Shown one piece after another: positions 8,478 to 18,808 of a stretch of DNA of 64,000 nt. The stretch is from the NCBI RefSeq assembly GCF_001657475.1, contig NZ_LXEY01000016.1:62001-126000 (forward strand), given 5' to 3'. A program made the position numbers and the translations under genes. The notes beneath the pieces are model-generated. The model saw only the letters and a program-made list of their open reading frames with translations. It searched no databases and was not told where the DNA came from. This DNA comes from Enteractinococcus helveticum (GTDB lineage: Bacteria; Actinomycetota; Actinomycetes; Actinomycetales; Micrococcaceae). Within the stretch, counting starts at the first letter, position 1. Each line of letters starts with the position of its first letter.

Positions 8478-9284
8478 CTATGCAGCCGTGCGCTCCCAGT
8501 TGAGCCGACTCAACAGCCGCGACCACTTATTCGCTGGCAACTGAGGGTTCAGTGTTGCCACCCCAAGACAGTACTTCGACATACTCACCGGACGAATATT
8601 CAACTCCGCCAGCGCGGCATCGGAAATACCCCGCCCATGAGCAGTCTTGGTCTCCACGATCACCATGTCCGGACCATGCACCACACCATCAGCATCGGCG
8701 TAACGCAAATCCACGTCGCAGGTCACGCGCTCCCCATCCACCGGATCCACCAGTGTCGCACGCCGATACGCATTGCGCAATGCCGGAACCAATTTTGGCA
8801 TCTTGTGCCCATATTCTTCGGCGAGCACCTGGGCTGCAAATTCCAAGTTTTCCGGCGTCAGCACGTGAGCATCGGCTATCGGCTGCTCGCGACGATGCTT
8901 GACCGTCGCCCCGCGCAAGCCTTTCGTCTTGATCTCGAACATGCACAGTTCGGATTCCACATACGTTCGCGAACGCACTTTATACCGCCGACGACGCCCT
9001 TGGCGGTGAGCGACATACTGTTCAAAGTCTGGGGTGTCGAAGTATGTGGAACGGTATTGGAAAGTGCGCAGCCCATTGATCTGCATGACCGAAAATTCCG
9101 GACCCAGCCGATTGGTAAACCGGCGAAATTGTTCGGGAGTCAATAAGAATTTTTTATCCACCCGGGTCTGCAGAGCCGCGTTTTCCACGACGTCGGCCAG
9201 GGAAATCCCTGACCGACCATCAACCGCGCACTCCATGGCAATACGGGCTTGACTGAAGCGTTGTTTCTGGTTGGTTTCCTGCAT
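8478..9284 (-). CDS. VTC-domain protein (polyphosphate polymerase family)
   Basis: A 268-residue protein of the VTC/CYTH tunnel-fold family, which in eukaryotes makes polyphosphate from ATP. Basic tunnel residues occur in RRRRYKVRSRTY (about 97-108). The acidic metal-binding strands are seen in FEIKTK (116-121) and VETKT, and SKYCLG closes the fold. RTFQYRSTYFDTPD near 73-86 is the family's N-terminal signature. It follows a DUF4956 membrane protein by 3 nt, a pairing widespread in bacteria. Bacterial VTC proteins are poorly characterised, so polyphosphate synthesis is an inference from the family. Confidence 0.88.
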   Translation of the reverse strand: MQETNQKQRFSQARIAMECAVDGRSGISLADVVENAALQTRVDKKFLLTPEQFRRFTNRLGPEFSVMQINGLRTFQYRSTYFDTPDFEQYVAHRQGRRRRYKVRSRTYVESELCMFEIKTKGLRGATVKHRREQPIADAHVLTPENLEFAAQVLAEEYGHKMPKLVPALRNAYRRATLVDPVDGERVTCDVDLRYADADGVVHGPDMVIVETKTAHGRGISDAALAELNIRPVSMSKYCLGVATLNPQLPANKWSRLLSRLNWERTAA

Positions 9285-9287
9285 GGA

Positions 9288-9998
9288 CTATCGACCCGTG
9301 ATCGCATTGACGAGTCGGTTCGCAAACCCAGATGATGTGCGCTGCTGCGCACCGATCGGTTCTTGCAGCGCGATAGTTTGCTGCTGATCCAGGGGTTCTT
9401 TGCGGTTCTTGATGCGTTCCAGGATCTTATCGCCGGGCAAGGTCCCGACAGATTCATTAGTGCGATAGCGAACGTCCACAATGGTCATGTCGCGGACCAT
9501 GTCCAATTCCATGACGACGGTGCGCAAGATTTTGGCATCCAGCAGCTCTTCCAGTGCTGCCACGCGTTCTTGCTGGGATGGGTATGCCCGATCCAAGGTG
9601 ACCATCTGTCTTTCGGTTTTCGCTCCGATCCAGTGGTGGTCAGCAATAAACATGACACCAACCAAAAACGCGGTAATCAATGGCGAAACCCATGCCGGAT
9701 CTGGATGCAGTCCGTTGATCAGTCCAATCGCAAGCGAGATGAAGTAGTAGGCCACCTCTTCCTGGGTGAGAGTGTCAGAGCGTAGGCGGATGATCGACAG
9801 AATGCCGAACAATCCAAGACCAAGCCCCAGACCGGCTTCGGATTCCGAGAGCAGCAGCGTGACGGCAAAAATGCCCATACTTAACGCGATATAGGCAAGC
9901 GCAAGGTCCCGCCGGAAGTGGCGACGGAAATAGACGAGATAAACCAGGATTGCCATCCCGGCGATATTGGCTACCAGGCCAATCCACAATGCCATCAT
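9288..9998 (-). CDS. DUF4956 membrane protein, VTC partner
   Basis: A 236-residue integral membrane protein. The N-terminal 110 residues hold about four hydrophobic segments, including the conserved LGLGLGLFGILSIIRLRS stretch and the EEVAYYFISLAIGLI helix. The C-terminal 100 residues are cytosolic and charged, with predicted alpha/beta alternation. The start is ATG 9998 after GGAGA. It is the first gene of a two-gene operon with the VTC-domain protein. A reasonable model is a membrane anchor or channel that receives the polymer made by its partner. No function is established. Confidence 0.88.
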   Translation of the reverse strand: MMALWIGLVANIAGMAILVYLVYFRRHFRRDLALAYIALSMGIFAVTLLLSESEAGLGLGLGLFGILSIIRLRSDTLTQEEVAYYFISLAIGLINGLHPDPAWVSPLITAFLVGVMFIADHHWIGAKTERQMVTLDRAYPSQQERVAALEELLDAKILRTVVMELDMVRDMTIVDVRYRTNESVGTLPGDKILERIKNRKEPLDQQQTIALQEPIGAQQRTSSGFANRLVNAITGR

Positions 9999-10977: not shown

Positions 10978-12387
10978 GTGCAAAAACAGCGTATTGCGAT
11001 TATCGGCGCCGGCCCGAGCGGTCTGGCGGCATTGAGAGCCTTTGAGTCGGCAGAACGAGCCGGGGCAGCTATCCCTGAAATCGTTTGCTATGAGAAGCAA
11101 GATGATTGGGGAGGGCAGTGGAATTACTCGTGGCGCACTGGTATCGATCAATACGGTGAGCCGGTGCACTCCTCGATGTACCGTAACCTCTGGTCGAACG
11201 CTCCAAAAGAGGCTCTCGAGTTCGCAGAATATACGTTTGATAAGCACTTCGGGCGTCCCATCTCCTCATACCCGCCACGCGAAGTGCTGTGGGATTATAT
11301 TGACGGACGTCTTCGCTCCAGTAATGCCAGAGACAAGGTGCAATTTGCAACCGCAGCGCGCTGGGTGCAATATAACGAGGCCACTGATACCTTCACCGTC
11401 ACGGTAGAAGATCTCAAAACTCGCACCACCTCATCATCGGAATTCGACCGAGTCATCGTAGCCACCGGTCACTTCGCCTACCCGAACGTCCCAAGTTTTG
11501 AGGGCATCGAAACCTTCCCGGGCTCGGTAGAACACGCACACGATTTCCGGGGTGCCGAAATGTTGGCGGACAAACGCGTGCTGATGATCGGCTCGTCATA
11601 CTCGGCCGAAGATATCGGCGTCCAGGCGTATAAGATGGGCGCGCGCAGTGTCACGCTGAGCTACCGGTCCAAAGCCCTTGGCCACGACTGGCCGCAAGGG
11701 ATGGAAGAACTGCCTCTGGTCCAGCGCATTGAAGGCAATAGCGTGCACTTTATCAACGGTGAAGTCCGTGAATTTGATTCGATCGTCATGTGCACTGGCT
11801 ACATCCATAAATACCCATTCTTACCAAGTCAGCTGGCTATCGACTCACCAAACAACGTGTACCCTAGCGGGCTCTACCGCGGCGTCGTCTGGCAAGAAAA
11901 TCCGAAGCTGTATTATCTGGGCGCACAAGACCAGTGGTTTACCTTCAATATGTTTGATGCCCAAGCCTGGTATGTTCGCGATCTGATCCTTGGCCGCACA
12001 GCCCTACCATCTGTGCAAGACCGTGCAGCACATATCGAATCGTGGTCGAAACGCTTCAGCGAATTGTCCTGTGTCGATGACGAAGTTCGTTTCCAAGCCG
12101 ACTACATTCGAGATCTGATCGAAAACAGCGACTACCCAATGTTCGATCTCGACTCAGTAGTAGAGATTTTCATAGCGTGGCAGCGCGATAAAGCCGAAAA
12201 CGTGCTTACCTACCGCGATAAGCAATACCGCTCAGTTATGACCGGAACGATGTCGGCACGGCACCACACCCCATGGATGCGCGAATTGGACGACTCGTTG
12301 CAGCGTTACCTGTCACAACCTGAAAAAGACGAGATAGCAAAGATGCTCGACGACGAAGACGTCACCGAATCTATCAGAGCAAACTAA
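10978..12387 (+). CDS. tmm: Flavin-dependent trimethylamine monooxygenase
   Basis: Bacterial class B flavin monooxygenase of 469 residues that oxidises trimethylamine to its N-oxide with NADPH and O2. The FAD site GAGPSG (10-15), the FMO fingerprint FPGSVEHAHDF, the NADPH site GSSYSAEDI and the ATGHF strand are present. Long blocks characteristic of Methylocella-type Tmm are recognisable (WGGQWNYSWRTG, SMYRNLWSN, YPPREVLWDYI, DQWFTFNMFDAQAWY, MTGTMSARHHTPW). GTG 10978 follows AAAGGA. Related enzymes also oxidise dimethyl sulfide and indole. No Tdm-type TMAO demethylase is seen in the window. A hairpin terminator follows directly. Confidence 0.9.
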   Translation: MQKQRIAIIGAGPSGLAALRAFESAERAGAAIPEIVCYEKQDDWGGQWNYSWRTGIDQYGEPVHSSMYRNLWSNAPKEALEFAEYTFDKHFGRPISSYPPREVLWDYIDGRLRSSNARDKVQFATAARWVQYNEATDTFTVTVEDLKTRTTSSSEFDRVIVATGHFAYPNVPSFEGIETFPGSVEHAHDFRGAEMLADKRVLMIGSSYSAEDIGVQAYKMGARSVTLSYRSKALGHDWPQGMEELPLVQRIEGNSVHFINGEVREFDSIVMCTGYIHKYPFLPSQLAIDSPNNVYPSGLYRGVVWQENPKLYYLGAQDQWFTFNMFDAQAWYVRDLILGRTALPSVQDRAAHIESWSKRFSELSCVDDEVRFQADYIRDLIENSDYPMFDLDSVVEIFIAWQRDKAENVLTYRDKQYRSVMTGTMSARHHTPWMRELDDSLQRYLSQPEKDEIAKMLDDEDVTESIRAN

Positions 12388-12459: not shown

Positions 12460-14169
12460 TTAGTAATAGAGATCGTAGGGCGCGATATTCCACACCCGGT
12501 GTGCTGTTTTGTCTTGGGTGATGGGTTCGCCAGCTTCTGTGAGAATCTTCTTGGCGATATCTAACTCGTTTTGTGCCTCATGGCGGTCCTGATACATGAA
12601 CTCATCAGAGGCTTCAGCGGACGCATTGGCGACTTTTTCTTCCAAGGTTCGGATAACCAGTTCTTGTTCTTTCAGCACGTCAGCGTGAGCTTTTTCCACC
12701 CAGGCTGGCTGTCTGACGCGATTGATATCTGCGGTTCGAGCATACTCTTCAGCGGTCTGTTTATAAATGAGTCCAGCGTTTTCGTGGATGTCGAGCATGA
12801 TGGCTTCGATATCTTCTCTTGTTAGGTCATCGGGATTCAACGGTTTTTCACGTCGACGGCCACCAATGCCCTTGTAGGTGAGATAGTACGGGAACATGGT
12901 CTGAATCAATTTGCCAGCTGGCTTGACCGATTCGCCGTCGTCATTGAGGCCTTTCGGCTGGACTCCTTGGATGCCGATGCGCCCCGATTCTGGGCGAGCA
13001 ATCTCTTCGGGAGGCATGAAACCGTGGCGCAACAGCTCACGAATTCCCGAGCCTGAAATGTAGATCCGTGTGCTGTCATCGTGTGCGCAGGTTTTCAAGG
13101 TCGTGGGCTGAGCACAGCGTACGCAGTAAAACACCTCGTTGAAGAAGCGAATATCAATGCCCAACTCTTCTGGTGTGAACTCATCAAAGATACTTTGACT
13201 TTCATAAAGCTCGTAGTAATCCCCCACGCCTGCATAATCACGACCAACGATCTTGTGAGTACACCCAAGATTTTTCAAAATGAGCGCGTGGAGTACTGCT
13301 TCGCGAGGCCCAGCAAAAACATAGGTCACCCGCAGCGGAAACATGATGGTTCGATCTGATGGATAATATTCATCCAGCACGCTTCGATACGCCAACATCC
13401 GGAACTCATGGCGGGTATATTCACGCTTCGCCATTTCTACCAACGGCAACAACAGCAGTGCATCAACTTCTTCTAAGAGGTTCTTTTGCATGTACTCATG
13501 GCCGCGGTGCATTGGGTTTGCCCCGGTCACGAATCCTGCCACACTGGTGTACTTTTGCTCTTCATAGAAAAGCTGCCAGGTTTCTTTGGGCTCCATCCGC
13601 ATGCCTTCAAACGGTCCCCAGTCAGGTCGATTCAGCAACGTGATTTTCCCGGCCAGTGCAGTATCCCCCATGCGCCGATAGATCGCATCGACACCTGGGT
13701 GCTTGCGATCCGTGGTGCCGAAAATATGTTTCGCACGGTGGGCCCTGTCGTAGGAGAAGATATCGTCCAGGTGCAGCAGAGCAATAGGTTTATGGTCTTC
13801 GTCGACCAAAACGACGTCCTCACCGACGGACAGGGATTTTACGACGTCGCTATTACGCTCCCCGATTGGCGCAAAGCTCAAGGGAACTGGCCAAGGCAAG
13901 CCATTCGTCATGCGCCCGGTTTCTAAACATGAAAGGTATTCTTGCTCATTCATGAAACCTTCGTTGGGCGAGAGGACGCCGGTAGCAATCAGTTCTAAAG
14001 TAATGGCGGCTTCAAGATCCACCATGATCTTCGGTACGCTTTGAGCTGTTTCAAGTCCTTGTTTTCGTGCCTCGCCTGTTGCCACGCGGTCCACGAGCTT
14101 GCCACCGTGGGGCTGCTGTGGATACGTCGCGAATTTTTCTTGATCCAGTACCAGTGGTTGCTCTACCAT
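12460..14169 (-). CDS. ATP-sulfurylase-like nucleotidyltransferase with altered sulfate site and C-terminal extension
   Basis: 569 residues from ATG 14169; a TTG 42 nt upstream is an alternative. Residues 1-395 align by motif with dissimilatory-type ATP sulfurylase: GVLSPNEGFMNE, the PMHRGHEY nucleotide loop, VFAGPREAVLHALI, IVGRDYAGVGDYY, a Cys/Cys/Cys/His zinc site (349, 352, 361, 363) and SGSGIRELL. The sulfate-contacting QxRN segment reads VTGAN (about 214-218), with Gln and Arg both lost and one residue inserted, and GRDH is GRDY. Beyond about 396 there is an extra helical domain of about 170 residues that standard enzymes (about 390) lack. ATP use is likely; sulfate as substrate is doubtful. 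It is convergent with tmm. Confidence 0.75.
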   Translation of the reverse strand: MVEQPLVLDQEKFATYPQQPHGGKLVDRVATGEARKQGLETAQSVPKIMVDLEAAITLELIATGVLSPNEGFMNEQEYLSCLETGRMTNGLPWPVPLSFAPIGERNSDVVKSLSVGEDVVLVDEDHKPIALLHLDDIFSYDRAHRAKHIFGTTDRKHPGVDAIYRRMGDTALAGKITLLNRPDWGPFEGMRMEPKETWQLFYEEQKYTSVAGFVTGANPMHRGHEYMQKNLLEEVDALLLLPLVEMAKREYTRHEFRMLAYRSVLDEYYPSDRTIMFPLRVTYVFAGPREAVLHALILKNLGCTHKIVGRDYAGVGDYYELYESQSIFDEFTPEELGIDIRFFNEVFYCVRCAQPTTLKTCAHDDSTRIYISGSGIRELLRHGFMPPEEIARPESGRIGIQGVQPKGLNDDGESVKPAGKLIQTMFPYYLTYKGIGGRRREKPLNPDDLTREDIEAIMLDIHENAGLIYKQTAEEYARTADINRVRQPAWVEKAHADVLKEQELVIRTLEEKVANASAEASDEFMYQDRHEAQNELDIAKKILTEAGEPITQDKTAHRVWNIAPYDLYY

Positions 14170-15348: not shown

Positions 15349-16134
15349 TCACCGTTGATTCCACGCTTGCTGCTGGAGAGCCTGTGACAATTCATGTGCG
15401 TGGTGCATCAGCAGCTTGCCTATTTCGTCTCGACGAGGTTGTTTGAATCGTTGCTCAATACCAGTCAGACTCAGTGCTCCAGCAGGAAATCCCGTGACGT
15501 CGAAAACGGGAGCCGCTATCCCCCAGCTGCCTTCGACAATCAGGCCTGGGTTGGTCACATATCCCTTATGACGGCCATCGGCAATGCGCTCACGGATTGA
15601 CGCTGGGCTATGGGCGGCCGAATGCTCGGCGATCAGGTCATGCTCAGCAAGGTAGTCTTCGACCTGGCGTTGCGGCATGAACGCCAGGATTGCTAGGCCG
15701 GCAGACGCGACGCCGAGCGGAAATCGCCGTCCCTCATAAAGTACGAAAGACCGGATTGGGAATGCGCCGTCCTCGCGGACCAAACACACCGTCTCGTTGC
15801 CGCGCAGAGTGGAGAAGAATGCGGACTCTTCGGTTTGCTGTGCCAGGGCGTGCACATGTTTTTGCGCGGTCTCCGTGACGTCGTAACGGGCGCCGGCGAT
15901 GTTGCCCAATAAAAAGAGCTCTGGACCCAACAGCCACCGGCCGGATTTGGCATCCTGGTCGCAAAAACCTTCAGCGGCCAAAGAGTCCAGTATGCGATGT
16001 GCCGTGGGCCGTGCCATGTCGGACTGGCGGGCAGCATCCGAGGTCGTGACGCCGTTGGGCATAGCACCAGAGACCACTCGCAATAACGCTGCTGCGCGGG
16101 ACAGCACTTGGACACCGGATCCTTTTTTCGCCAT
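15349..16134 (-). CDS. IclR-family regulator of the CoA-transferase operon
   Basis: A 261-residue IclR regulator with an N-terminal winged helix (about 8-70, ending MARPTAHRILDSLAAEG) and a C-terminal effector domain. The frame is open upstream, but ATG 16134 gives the normal MAKKGSGVQVLSRAAALL beginning. It is divergent from the 3-oxoacid CoA-transferase/thiolase operon at 16285, and two palindromes lie in or beside the spacer, one abutting its own start. PcaR-like or acetoacetate-responsive control of the operon and of itself is the natural reading. The effector is not known. Confidence 0.88.
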   Translation of the reverse strand: MAKKGSGVQVLSRAAALLRVVSGAMPNGVTTSDAARQSDMARPTAHRILDSLAAEGFCDQDAKSGRWLLGPELFLLGNIAGARYDVTETAQKHVHALAQQTEESAFFSTLRGNETVCLVREDGAFPIRSFVLYEGRRFPLGVASAGLAILAFMPQRQVEDYLAEHDLIAEHSAAHSPASIRERIADGRHKGYVTNPGLIVEGSWGIAAPVFDVTGFPAGALSLTGIEQRFKQPRRDEIGKLLMHHAHELSQALQQQAWNQR

Positions 16135-16149
16135 GTCCACATTATGGAC
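16135..16149. promoter_or_regulatory. Palindrome GTCCA-N5-TGGAC at the IclR start
   Basis: A 5+5+5 palindrome immediately upstream of ATG 16134; probable autoregulatory IclR site. Confidence 0.5.
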
Positions 16150-16256
16150 ACTTTGTGTGCCTCTTGTCACCTTCTGAGCAATTGCCCTCGAAAATATAGG
16201 GAACACTTGTTCATTTGCAAGGGCATCAGTAGGTTCATTATCAGATTCAGTAATCA

Positions 16257-16267
16257 CCACATCGTGG
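16257..16267. promoter_or_regulatory. Palindrome CCAC-ATC-GTGG upstream of the CoA-transferase genes
   Basis: A short symmetrical site 18 nt before the CoA-transferase A start, sharing the TGGAC-like half-site with 16135-16149. Possible second IclR site. Confidence 0.4.
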
Positions 16268-16284
16268 ACAGATGAGAAAAGAGT

Positions 16285-16995
16285 ATGCACTTGAAGTACC
16301 AAGATGATGCGCTGGAGGCACTGGCCTCAGTCATAGAAGATGGAATGACCATCGCCGTCGGTGGATTTGGGCTCTCCGGGAACCCCACACGATTGATCCA
16401 TGCACTGCGTGACACGGGGGCTAAAGATCTCACCATCGTTTCCAACAACATGGGTGTCGACGGCAAGGGTCTGGGGATCCTGTTAGAAAACCAGCAGGTC
16501 TCCAAAGTCATTGCATCCTACGTGGGAGAAAACAGCCTGTTTGCGCAACAGTACCTCTCCGGTGAGCTCGAAGTTGAGTTCTCGCCGCAGGGCACACTGG
16601 CCGAGCGACTGCGTGCCGGCGGCGTCGGCATCCCGGCATTTTTTACCGCGACCGGTGTTGGCACCGAAATTGCTCAGGGTAAAGAAGAACAAGTCTTCAA
16701 TGGTCAGCGCGCCATTATGGAAAAAGGTATCCGCGCTGATATCGCCCTGGTCAAAGCGCACACAGCCGATACAGAAGGCAACCTGCGTTATCGCAAGACC
16801 TCCATGAACTTCAATCCACTGGCGGCAATGTCGGGTCAGTTCACGCTGGCCGAAGCCGAGCACATGCTCGACGATTTCATGGATCCAGAACTGGTCCATA
16901 CCCCGGGCATCTTCGTCCAGGCGCTCGTGGATGCTGATCCGGTCAAGGACATTGAAAACGTTACCGTCCGCTCCCTGCAGGAGGTTGCATCATAA
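16285..16995 (+). CDS. scoA: 3-oxoacid CoA-transferase subunit A
   Basis: A 236-residue alpha subunit of a class I CoA-transferase that moves CoA from succinyl-CoA to a 3-oxoacid. GGFGLSGNP (about 26-34), the SYVGEN block, [14 protein letters not shown] and [12 protein letters not shown] are family hallmarks. Its stop overlaps the start of subunit B by one base, and a thiolase gene follows, making a complete module for acetoacetate or beta-ketoadipate activation and cleavage. The sequence looks closer to the ScoA/SCOT type than to PcaI, but the two cannot be separated securely by eye. Confidence 0.9.
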
Positions 16996-17642
16996 TGTGG
17001 ACCCGCGATGAAATGGCAGCGATTGCCGCCTCAGAACTCACCGATGGCCAGTACGTCAACCTTGGCATTGGGATGCCAACCCTGGTAGCAAATAATCTGC
17101 CTGACGGCGTCTCGGTCAAATTGCAATCCGAAAATGGGTTGCTCGGCATGGGACCTTTCCCGTATGAGGGTGAAGAAGATGCCGACCTGATTAATGCCGG
17201 CAAACAGACCGTGACGATCGAACCGGGCGGCAGCTTCTTCGATTCGGCCACCTCGTTTGGGATGATCCGCGGCGGCCACGTCAAAACTGCGATCTTGGGA
17301 GCCATGCAGGTTGCTTCAAATGGCGACCTGGCCAACTGGCAAATCCCGGGCAAGCTCGTGAAAGGCATGGGTGGCGCCATGGATCTGGTGGCGGGCACTC
17401 CGCACGTGGTGGTCATGACCGACCACGTTGCCAAAGATGGCACACCGAAAATCGTGACCGAATGCACCTTGCCGCTGACTGGAGCAGGCGTCGTCGACCG
17501 CATTATCACCGACCGGGCAGTGTTCGACGTCGTTGATCACCAACTAGTGCTGCGTCGGATCGCTCCCGGGCACACGGTGGATGAACTGCGAGAGATTACC
17601 GATGCTGACTTTGCTGTGGAGCTGGAGGAGGTAGCCGCATGA
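16995..17642 (+). CDS. scoB: 3-oxoacid CoA-transferase subunit B
   Basis: A 215-residue beta subunit with the catalytic glutamate in SENG (Glu46), which forms the glutamyl-CoA intermediate. GIGMPTLV (24-31), the [18 protein letters not shown] block and TDRAVFDV are also typical. It starts at ATG 16995, sharing a base with the TAA of subunit A, and its own TGA overlaps the ATG of the following thiolase (ATGA). The tight packing means balanced expression of the heteromeric enzyme. Confidence 0.92.
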
Positions 17643-18808
17643 CCGCCTATATTGCAGGATACGCGCGTACCCCATTTACCAAATTCACCGGCCAGTTGGC
17701 CACCGAAACAGCCGTTGATCTCGGTGCGCATGCAGTGTCCGCAGCGCTAGAACGCGCGGGCATCTCCGCTGACAAAGTTGATCAGGTGATTGCCGGCCAA
17801 GTATTACAGGCCGGAGCGGGGCAGAACCCTGCGCGACAGACCGCAGTGGGTGCCGGAGTTGGATTCAACAAACCCGCCCAGACGCTCAATGTGGTGTGTC
17901 TATCGGGTACCGAGGCGATTTCGCAGGCCAACCGACTCATCAACGCTGGCGAAGCGGAAGTCGTTGTCGCCGTCGGGCAAGAATCTATGTCACAGGCGCC
18001 GCACGTGGCTCCGCTACGCTCGGCTACCAAATACGGGGCCGCAAATTTTCAAGACACCGTTGATCATGATGGGCTCACTGATGCGTTCGAACGCATCGCG
18101 ATGGGCACGCTGACTGATCAGGGCAATACTCAGTTAGGACTCAACCGATGCGACCAAGACGCCTACGCGGCACAGTCTCATCAGCGGGCGGCAGCCCACC
18201 AAGCGTTTCTCGCCGACGAGATCGCACCCTACACCGTCAAGACCCGTCGCGGGGAAACAGTAATCGAACACGACGACGGAGTGCGTGGTGATGCTACCGC
18301 CGAATCGCTAGCCAACCTGCGCCCGGCGTTTAACCCGGATGGCACCGTGACCGCAGGCAATGCCTCGCAAATCACCGACGGCGCTGCAGCCGTTGTGGTG
18401 GTGTCCGAGGCAGCTGTCGAGCGCATGGGGTTGAAGCCGCTGGCACGGATTGAATCCACGGCATTCGTTGCCGGGCCAGATGTGCAGCTGCACTCGCAAC
18501 CGGCCAATGCGATCCGCTGTGCACTGGAGAAAGCCGGTTATGACACTGCCGAGTTGAAGGTCGTGGAAATTAACGAAGCTTTTGCGTCCGTCTCGCTGCA
18601 ATCGGCCAAGGAGCTGGGCATTGACCTCGACCTGGTAAATCCGCGTGGCGGTGCGATCGCTCTGGGGCATCCGATCGGTGCTTCGGGAACCCGAATTGTT
18701 GGAACGTTAGCACGTCAACTGGCTGAAGCAGGCGCTGGATCCGTCGGCGCGGCCGGTATTTGCGGCGGTGGCGGCCAAGGCAGTGCCATCATCCTCCGTG
18801 CCGTCTAG
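17639..18808 (+). CDS. Acetyl-CoA acetyltransferase / beta-ketoadipyl-CoA thiolase
   Basis: A 389-residue degradative thiolase with all catalytic parts: nucleophile Cys87 in [26 protein letters not shown] (about 343-350) and the second Cys in GICGGGGQG near the C-terminus. It cleaves the 3-oxoacyl-CoA made by the upstream transferase into acetyl-CoA plus acetyl- or succinyl-CoA. Operon position suggests acetoacetate breakdown to two acetyl-CoA, or the last step of the beta-ketoadipate pathway; an aromatic-acid type transporter lies 1 kb downstream. A strong terminator follows. Confidence 0.93.

Follow-up and report, generated by a model that had tools for sequence, protein, structure and literature searches.

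Introduction

In the ATP sulfurylase of Allochromatium, the sulfate oxygens are held by Gln199 and Arg201 of the QXRN motif and by the NH of Ala299, and the alpha-phosphate is held by Thr200, the NH of Arg201 and Asn202 (available text of PMC3779200). According to the same text, the ribose is held by Gly295, Arg296 and His298 of the GRD loop, pyrophosphate is served by Asn202, His205, His208 and Arg365, and Asp237 of the GxxKxxD loop bonds Arg201.

We analysed a stretch of 64,000 nucleotides from Enteractinococcus helveticum (hereafter the window). An earlier note on this DNA had described a homologue of ATP sulfurylase that should still bind ATP, has lost the sulfate-binding motif and may serve a different acceptor. 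The strand, which was not given there, is the minus strand, and the gene at 12460-14169 starts with ATG and encodes a product of 569 aa. Here we report on the family to which this protein belongs, its genomic company and its probable function.

Results

The gene and the parts of its product are as follows.

12460..14169, minus strand: gene for a putative ITGAN-type ATP-sulfurylase-like adenylyltransferase, 569 aa (ORF and domain searches)
13627..14115, minus strand: PUA-like N-terminal domain, residues 19-181 (Pfam PUA_2)
12979..13602, minus strand: ATP-sulfurylase catalytic domain, residues 190-397 (Pfam PF01747, 2.1e-65; model against 8a8d)
13498..13533, minus strand: F-VTGAN-PMHRGH, residues 213-224, with the sulfate-binding QTRN replaced and HxxH kept (alignment)
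13417..13437, minus strand: ExxKxxY replacing GxxKxxD, residues 245-251 (alignment; role of the loop from the available text of PMC3779200)
13234..13245, minus strand: GRDY, residues 309-312; GRDH in the rest of the family (alignment)
13036..13056, minus strand: SGSGIRE, residues 372-378 (alignment)
12463..12972, minus strand: C-terminal helical domain, residues 400-569, of no known family (profile, Pfam, PDB and fold searches)

In a structure model of the 569-aa protein (mean pLDDT 75.5), residues 17-408 resemble solved ATP sulfurylases, with 8a8d as the best match (Z 39.6, rmsd 2.4, 372 aligned residues). The Pfam domains agree with this, and the protein belongs to the ATP-sulfurylase fold. 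Its scores fell just below both curated NCBIfam cut-offs, with 384.2 against 387 bits for sulfate adenylyltransferase and 284.4 against 322.95 for sopT. The HRGH loop (residues 221-224), the zinc set (C349/C352/C361/H363) and the SGSGIRE motif (residues 372-378) are intact, as had been claimed for this gene, and the approximately 170 extra C-terminal residues (400-569) were found as well.

Scanning genome contigs, we found 105 relatives and retained 80 as loci. They originate from Bacillaceae and relatives, Alcaligenaceae, roseobacters, Aliidiomarina, Arenibacter, Pseudomonas, Leucobacter and Enteractinococcus, and nearly all align up to residue 568. The alignment with ATP sulfurylases proposed in the earlier note was made. 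(I/V)TGAN, with TGAN at residues 215-218, is present in 83/83 family rows (82 distinct genes, including that of the window), and QTRN in 10/10 ordinary sulfurylases. No QxRN sulfate loop was seen in 24 ITGAN-family rows, as compared to 10/10 ordinary sulfurylases. The Gln and Arg that hold sulfate are replaced, as had been stated, by VTGAN with one inserted residue relative to FQTRN. As the relatives are 56-92% identical over nearly the whole length in the 80 loci, and dN/dS is about 0.017 between the genes of two Enteractinococcus species (dS being saturated), the change of motif is not due to chance.

The second loop reads ExxKxxY in all 83 family rows and GxxKxxD in 10/10 ordinary sulfurylases. 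Throughout the family, the Gln and Arg that bind sulfate have disappeared together with the Asp partner of this Arg, and the second loop shows E for G and Y for D. Residues T215, N218, H221, H224, K248 and R377 are invariant in 83/83 rows, and the nucleotide and pyrophosphate motifs HxxH, GRD and SGTxxR are present, with SGS and GRDY variants in Enteractinococcus. Judged from the alignment, the residues for alpha-phosphate and pyrophosphate are kept while the sulfate-holding side chains are lost. Such a coupled loss of Gln, Arg and Asp would be expected from a sulfate site remodelled to take a different acceptor, with adenylyl transfer retained. All four zinc ligands are absent from one of the 83 rows (Leucobacter, L081, 8001-9707), indicating that members of the family can dispense with the zinc set.

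A tree was built from 34 rows, and all 24 ITGAN rows fell on one side of a branch with support 100/99. Long branches were flagged for one ordinary and one ITGAN row, and the exact attachment of the clade is therefore unsure. By its sequence the protein is a member of this separate, well-supported clade, a paralogous family of the ATP-sulfurylase fold. The window gene grouped with Virgibacillus (95/98) and the Leucobacter copy was placed among Alcaligenaceae, which makes horizontal transfer likely. The gene is accessory in Enteractinococcus, being present in 3/9 genomes of the genus. In the literature covered, which leaves out most subscription journals, we found no description of the ITGAN family. 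The best plasmid match (L082, NZ_CP081281.1), entered as a Phaeobacter inhibens plasmid with a length of 16.7 kb, was set aside because of broken frames and Alcaligenaceae-like genes, and it may be a misassembled or contaminant sequence.

The GRDY motif mentioned in the earlier note is present at residues 309-312, but it is a later change specific to Enteractinococcus and not a feature of the family, as it was found in 3/83 rows that represent 2 distinct genes, both from this genus. Compared with 79/79 other rows, a set that leaves out the rows of the window, L001, L002 and L003, the two window-type Enteractinococcus genes differ by I214V, H228Q, Q241L, A306K and H312Y, among others, and also by K321L, H325Q, T374S and K388E. 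Some of the Enteractinococcus states, such as Q325 and E388, resemble ordinary sulfurylases again, and the acceptor may therefore have changed once more. A third Enteractinococcus genome (G005) carries the GRDH form ordinary for the family, with 56% identity.

The C-terminal residues 400-569 are helical and strongly conserved, with the block SDEFMYQD and other invariants. When folded alone the domain reached a pLDDT of 81.4. It had no match of weight in Pfam and none below E 0.4 among PDB sequences, the best Foldseek match had an E of 1.5, and the best VIA match (Z 6.8, rmsd 5.5, 87 aligned) might reflect no more than a common arrangement of helices. We identified no CoA-binding feature in the domain. 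Its profile detected 31 carriers among 708 genomes (Actinomycetota 3/396, Alcaligenaceae 21/151, Planococcaceae 7/161), of which a few may be counted twice if drawn in more than one search. A stand-alone or shuffled use of the domain was rejected, as 30 of the 31 lie in a long frame (at least 574 aa) and in G479 contig ends interrupt the gene. The deepest lineage detected (L086) has lost the SDEFMYQD block, and the L086 copy has HVGH for HRGH and is missing the second-loop Lys. Two Actinomycetota genomes (L088 and L089) have a divergent version of the gene, with C-terminal profile E values of 2e-28 and 9e-26.

Genes of sulfate assimilation were searched for in 38 carriers. Apart from the family gene, the sulfurylase profile hit a single further sulfurylase, in G440. 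The family gene occurs twice in G405 and is split over contigs in G479. CysD was found in 15/38 carriers. The APS/PAPS reductase CysH was likewise found in 15/38 and was absent from 23/38, with a search that was positive in 10/14 control genomes, B. subtilis and E. coli included. Taken together, 15 carriers had another sulfurylase and CysH, one (G412) had a sulfurylase (CysD) only, and 22 had neither; CysH was never present without another sulfurylase. On the basis of the 22/38 carriers with neither, a role in sulfate assimilation was rejected.

The E. helveticum genome is among these 22. The earlier note had considered that its reading would not hold if the genome lacked any other sulfurylase and depended on this one for sulfate assimilation. 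We indeed found no other sulfurylase, but APS/PAPS reductase is missing too, and thus the gene is not used for sulfate assimilation in this host. The protein shares the fold and the adenylyl-transfer motifs of sulfate adenylyltransferases and is set apart from them by its sulfate loop, partner loop, curated score and genomic role. Because the losses are confined to the side chains that hold sulfate and to the partner Asp, and because most examined carriers are without the next enzyme of sulfate assimilation, the suggestion that ATP binding is kept and the acceptor changed is well supported. In the nucleotidyltransferase proposed earlier, the identity of the true acceptor is putative.

Clustering of ORFs around 82 loci revealed that ActP-type symporters with DUF485 recur. 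With tblastn, symporter or symporter-kinase genes were detected in 27/83 carrier loci, which are related and do not represent 27 independent events, and in 0/40 control windows taken from nine carrier genomes. The other 56/83 loci had none of the symporters, and the window gene is among those without an adjoining one, so that this proximity holds for a part of the family only. Most copies of the family gene are monocistronic. The symporter lineages are Bacillaceae, two more distant Bacilli loci, Alcaligenaceae and, as a distant lineage, the two Actinomycetota genomes. In Bacillaceae, DUF485-ActP occurs twice around a LytS/LytTR pair. The order in Alcaligenaceae is DUF485, ActP, CrbR-like, CrbS-like and then the family gene, with a CBS/DUF294 protein in six loci, and the Alcaligenes symporter scored above the cut-off of the NCBIfam ActP subfamily (849.5 against 750). 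L088 and L089 have a divergent VC_2705-type symporter with a small subunit, and a CBS-domain protein downstream.

Other monocarboxylate-type neighbours were found as well. The gene lies downstream of a Liv-type ABC operon in three roseobacter loci, with a ScfR/RamB-like acetate regulator nearby; the regulator was called on one member that scored above the Pfam and below the NCBIfam cut-off. In Virgibacillus, Cerasibacillus and a Bacillales MAG it adjoins an L-lactate-type MFS transporter (one member scored, above cut-off), and in G005 it lies beside a channel of the formate/nitrite family (FNT). Those transporters that recur belong to the acetate/monocarboxylate class and are accompanied by acetate-type regulators in Alcaligenaceae and roseobacters, and the gene keeps company with genes for monocarboxylate transport and sensing in unlinked lineages. 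At L004 (2744-7837, Bacillales MAG) two copies of the family gene flank an MFS transporter of the L-lactate-type cluster.

The CrbS/R regulon of P. fluorescens consists of acs, actP with DUF485 (pflu1813), pflu5625 and pflu0110, and has an ACTU promoter motif (available text of PMC5715377). The Alcaligenaceae cluster with actP/DUF485 and CrbS/R matches this acetate regulon as far as that text describes it. We built the ACTU motif from the 13 sites in Table 4 of the same text. Near-perfect sites, with scores of 16-19, were found at the DUF485-actP promoters of 5/5 Alcaligenaceae loci scored, indicating that these loci are of acetate type. Upstream of the family gene itself in Alcaligenaceae the motif so built was weak (median 6.8 against a background of 4.8).

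Among 151 Alcaligenaceae genomes acs was missing from 12/21 carriers and 9/130 non-carriers (Fisher p 2.6e-7, a test that ignores relatedness), with several of the acs-less genomes being fragmented. At a looser limit it was also missing from the named isolates Oligella ureolytica, O. urethralis, Paenalcaligenes hominis and P. suwonensis. The replicate in Planococcaceae was not significant (absent from 2/7 carriers and 22/154 non-carriers, p 0.28); with a stricter threshold chosen post hoc the numbers were 4/7 and 24/154 (p 0.018). At E 1e-150 there was no acs match in 10/44 carriers, among them G417, which gave weaker acs-like matches. The majority of acs-less carriers possess ackA, and 6 of the 18 acs-less genomes among 38 carriers were without both. 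The E. helveticum genome has acs and ackA. Displacement of acs in place was rejected after inspection of 14 Alcaligenaceae acs neighbourhoods (4 carriers, 10 non-carriers), as CrbR/CrbS adjoin acs only in one non-carrier (G453).

In the window, the gene converges with a trimethylamine monooxygenase gene, as had been observed before. This gene lies at 10978-12387 on the plus strand (717.8 against an NCBIfam equivalog cut-off of 675), and some 70 bases separate its end from that of the sulfurylase-like gene. A link to trimethylamine metabolism was rejected as lacking support beyond this genus, since the monooxygenase is a neighbour only in two Enteractinococcus loci (the window and L002). A literature search on the two genes pointed to nothing but a metagenome database paper. 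At 16285-18808 (plus strand), 2-5 kb from the sulfurylase-like gene, lie the genes for 3-oxoacid CoA-transferase A/B and an acetyl-CoA acyltransferase (thiolase), which belong to acetoacetate or ketoadipate-type metabolism. An IclR-type regulator gene (15349-16302, minus strand) adjoins the CoA-transferase genes. Elsewhere in the window a gene for a VTC domain protein (8478-9998, minus strand) adjoins that for a DUF4956 membrane protein.

Discussion

Acetate is known to be activated by acetyl-CoA synthetase, by acetate kinase with phosphotransacetylase and by ADP-forming acetyl-CoA synthetase. Our main reading, to which we assign a probability of roughly 0.4, is that the family consists of adenylyltransferases that would activate a short monocarboxylate, acetate or a close relative, and not sulfate. 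In such a reaction AMP would be moved from ATP to the monocarboxylate with release of pyrophosphate, and the product would be an acyl-adenylate. This would be handed on, with CoA as the probable recipient and the C-terminal domain perhaps assisting, and the enzyme would in some hosts stand in for acetyl-CoA synthetase. The altered pocket, the rejected role in sulfate assimilation, the symporter company in unlinked lineages and the shortage of acs in Alcaligenaceae carriers speak for this reading. Against it speak the non-significant Planococcaceae replicate, the weak acetate motif ahead of the gene, the mostly monocistronic copies, the 56/83 loci without a symporter, the ackA of most acs-less carriers, the acs and ackA of E. 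helveticum and the negative result for a CoA-binding feature. In Enteractinococcus the pocket has been altered further at positions that are invariant elsewhere, and the acceptor there may be a different small acid.

A broader scheme is rather doubtful as a whole. It would make the family a further system of acetate or short-chain carboxylate activation on the ATP-sulfurylase fold, with a carboxylate pocket and a new acyl-transfer domain at the C terminus. The system would have spread horizontally among Bacillota, Pseudomonadota, Bacteroidota and Actinomycetota, replacing acs in some hosts and shifting to another acid in Enteractinococcus.

Alternatively, another small acceptor, such as an amino acid, a phosphonate or an amine-derived acid, could be adenylated, and the symporter linkage would then reflect that substrate. 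The variety of neighbouring transporters (SSS, Liv ABC, BCCT, MFS, FNT) is consistent with this, as is the position of the Enteractinococcus copy near a trimethylamine monooxygenase and a carbon-nitrogen hydrolase. We regard it as somewhat unlikely, as the transporters that recur are of the acetate/monocarboxylate class and acetate-type regulators adjoin the gene in Alcaligenaceae and roseobacters.

It is less probable still that the acceptor is sulfate or some other tetrahedral oxyanion (selenate, molybdate, arsenate, sulfite), adenylated for a non-assimilatory use, for example sulfation or reverse ATP formation. The fold, the complete set of alpha-phosphate and pyrophosphate residues and a score just under the cut-off for sulfate adenylyltransferase would fit such an activity. 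However, every member has lost the two side chains that hold sulfate as well as the partner Asp, no sulfur-pathway gene was among those neighbours that were annotated, and CysH is lacking in 23/38 carriers.

CBS domains generally bind adenine nucleotides, and the CBS-domain neighbours in the Actinomycetota lineage, with the DUF294 protein in six Alcaligenaceae loci, would suit an acyl-adenylate or related nucleotide that acts as a signal or regulator of acetate uptake. We consider this very unlikely, since the absence of acs from many Alcaligenaceae carriers suggests a metabolic stand-in. A catalytically dead homologue with a structural or regulatory function is the least probable alternative and hardly credible, given catalytic residues that are invariant in 83/83 rows and strong purifying selection, even though the zinc ligands are dispensable in one member.

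The protein is so near to sulfate adenylyltransferase (3 bits under the NCBIfam cut-off) that naming by similarity easily misassigns it, and bacteria in which no APS/PAPS reductase is seen would then be taken to activate sulfate. Should a carboxylate be the acceptor, as in our main reading, the ATP-sulfurylase fold would gain a second chemistry, and the 6/38 carriers with no match to either acs or ackA, Aliidiomarina being an example, would gain a candidate enzyme for activating acetate.

Compared with the known systems, the protein is closest to the Sat-type ATP sulfurylases (Methanothermococcus thermolithotrophicus 8a8d, Thermus 1v47, Bacillus Sat). It has 37% identity to 8a8d and shares with this type the PUA-like and catalytic fold, HxxH, GRD, SGTxxR and the Thr and Asn of the RNP loop. 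It differs in having (I/V)TGAN with an insertion for QTRN, ExxKxxY for GxxKxxD and an added C-terminal domain, and in having no link to sulfate assimilation. The bifunctional ATP sulfurylase/APS kinase (2gks, PRK05537) also has a sulfurylase core with a C-terminal addition, whereas the addition here is helical and has no match of weight to APS kinase or another Pfam family. With acetyl-CoA synthetase (Acs, TIGR02188) the family would share its proposed chemistry, from carboxylate and ATP to acyl-adenylate, and it shares the genomic company of ActP, DUF485 and CrbS/R, with Acs missing in many Alcaligenaceae carriers. Acs itself has the fold of the ANL superfamily, unrelated to that of ATP sulfurylase. 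Pantothenate synthetase and the class I aminoacyl-tRNA synthetases are fold relatives with an HxGH-type site that adenylate carboxylates; they act on other substrates and carry other appended domains, and they provide a precedent within the superfamily for the chemistry proposed here.
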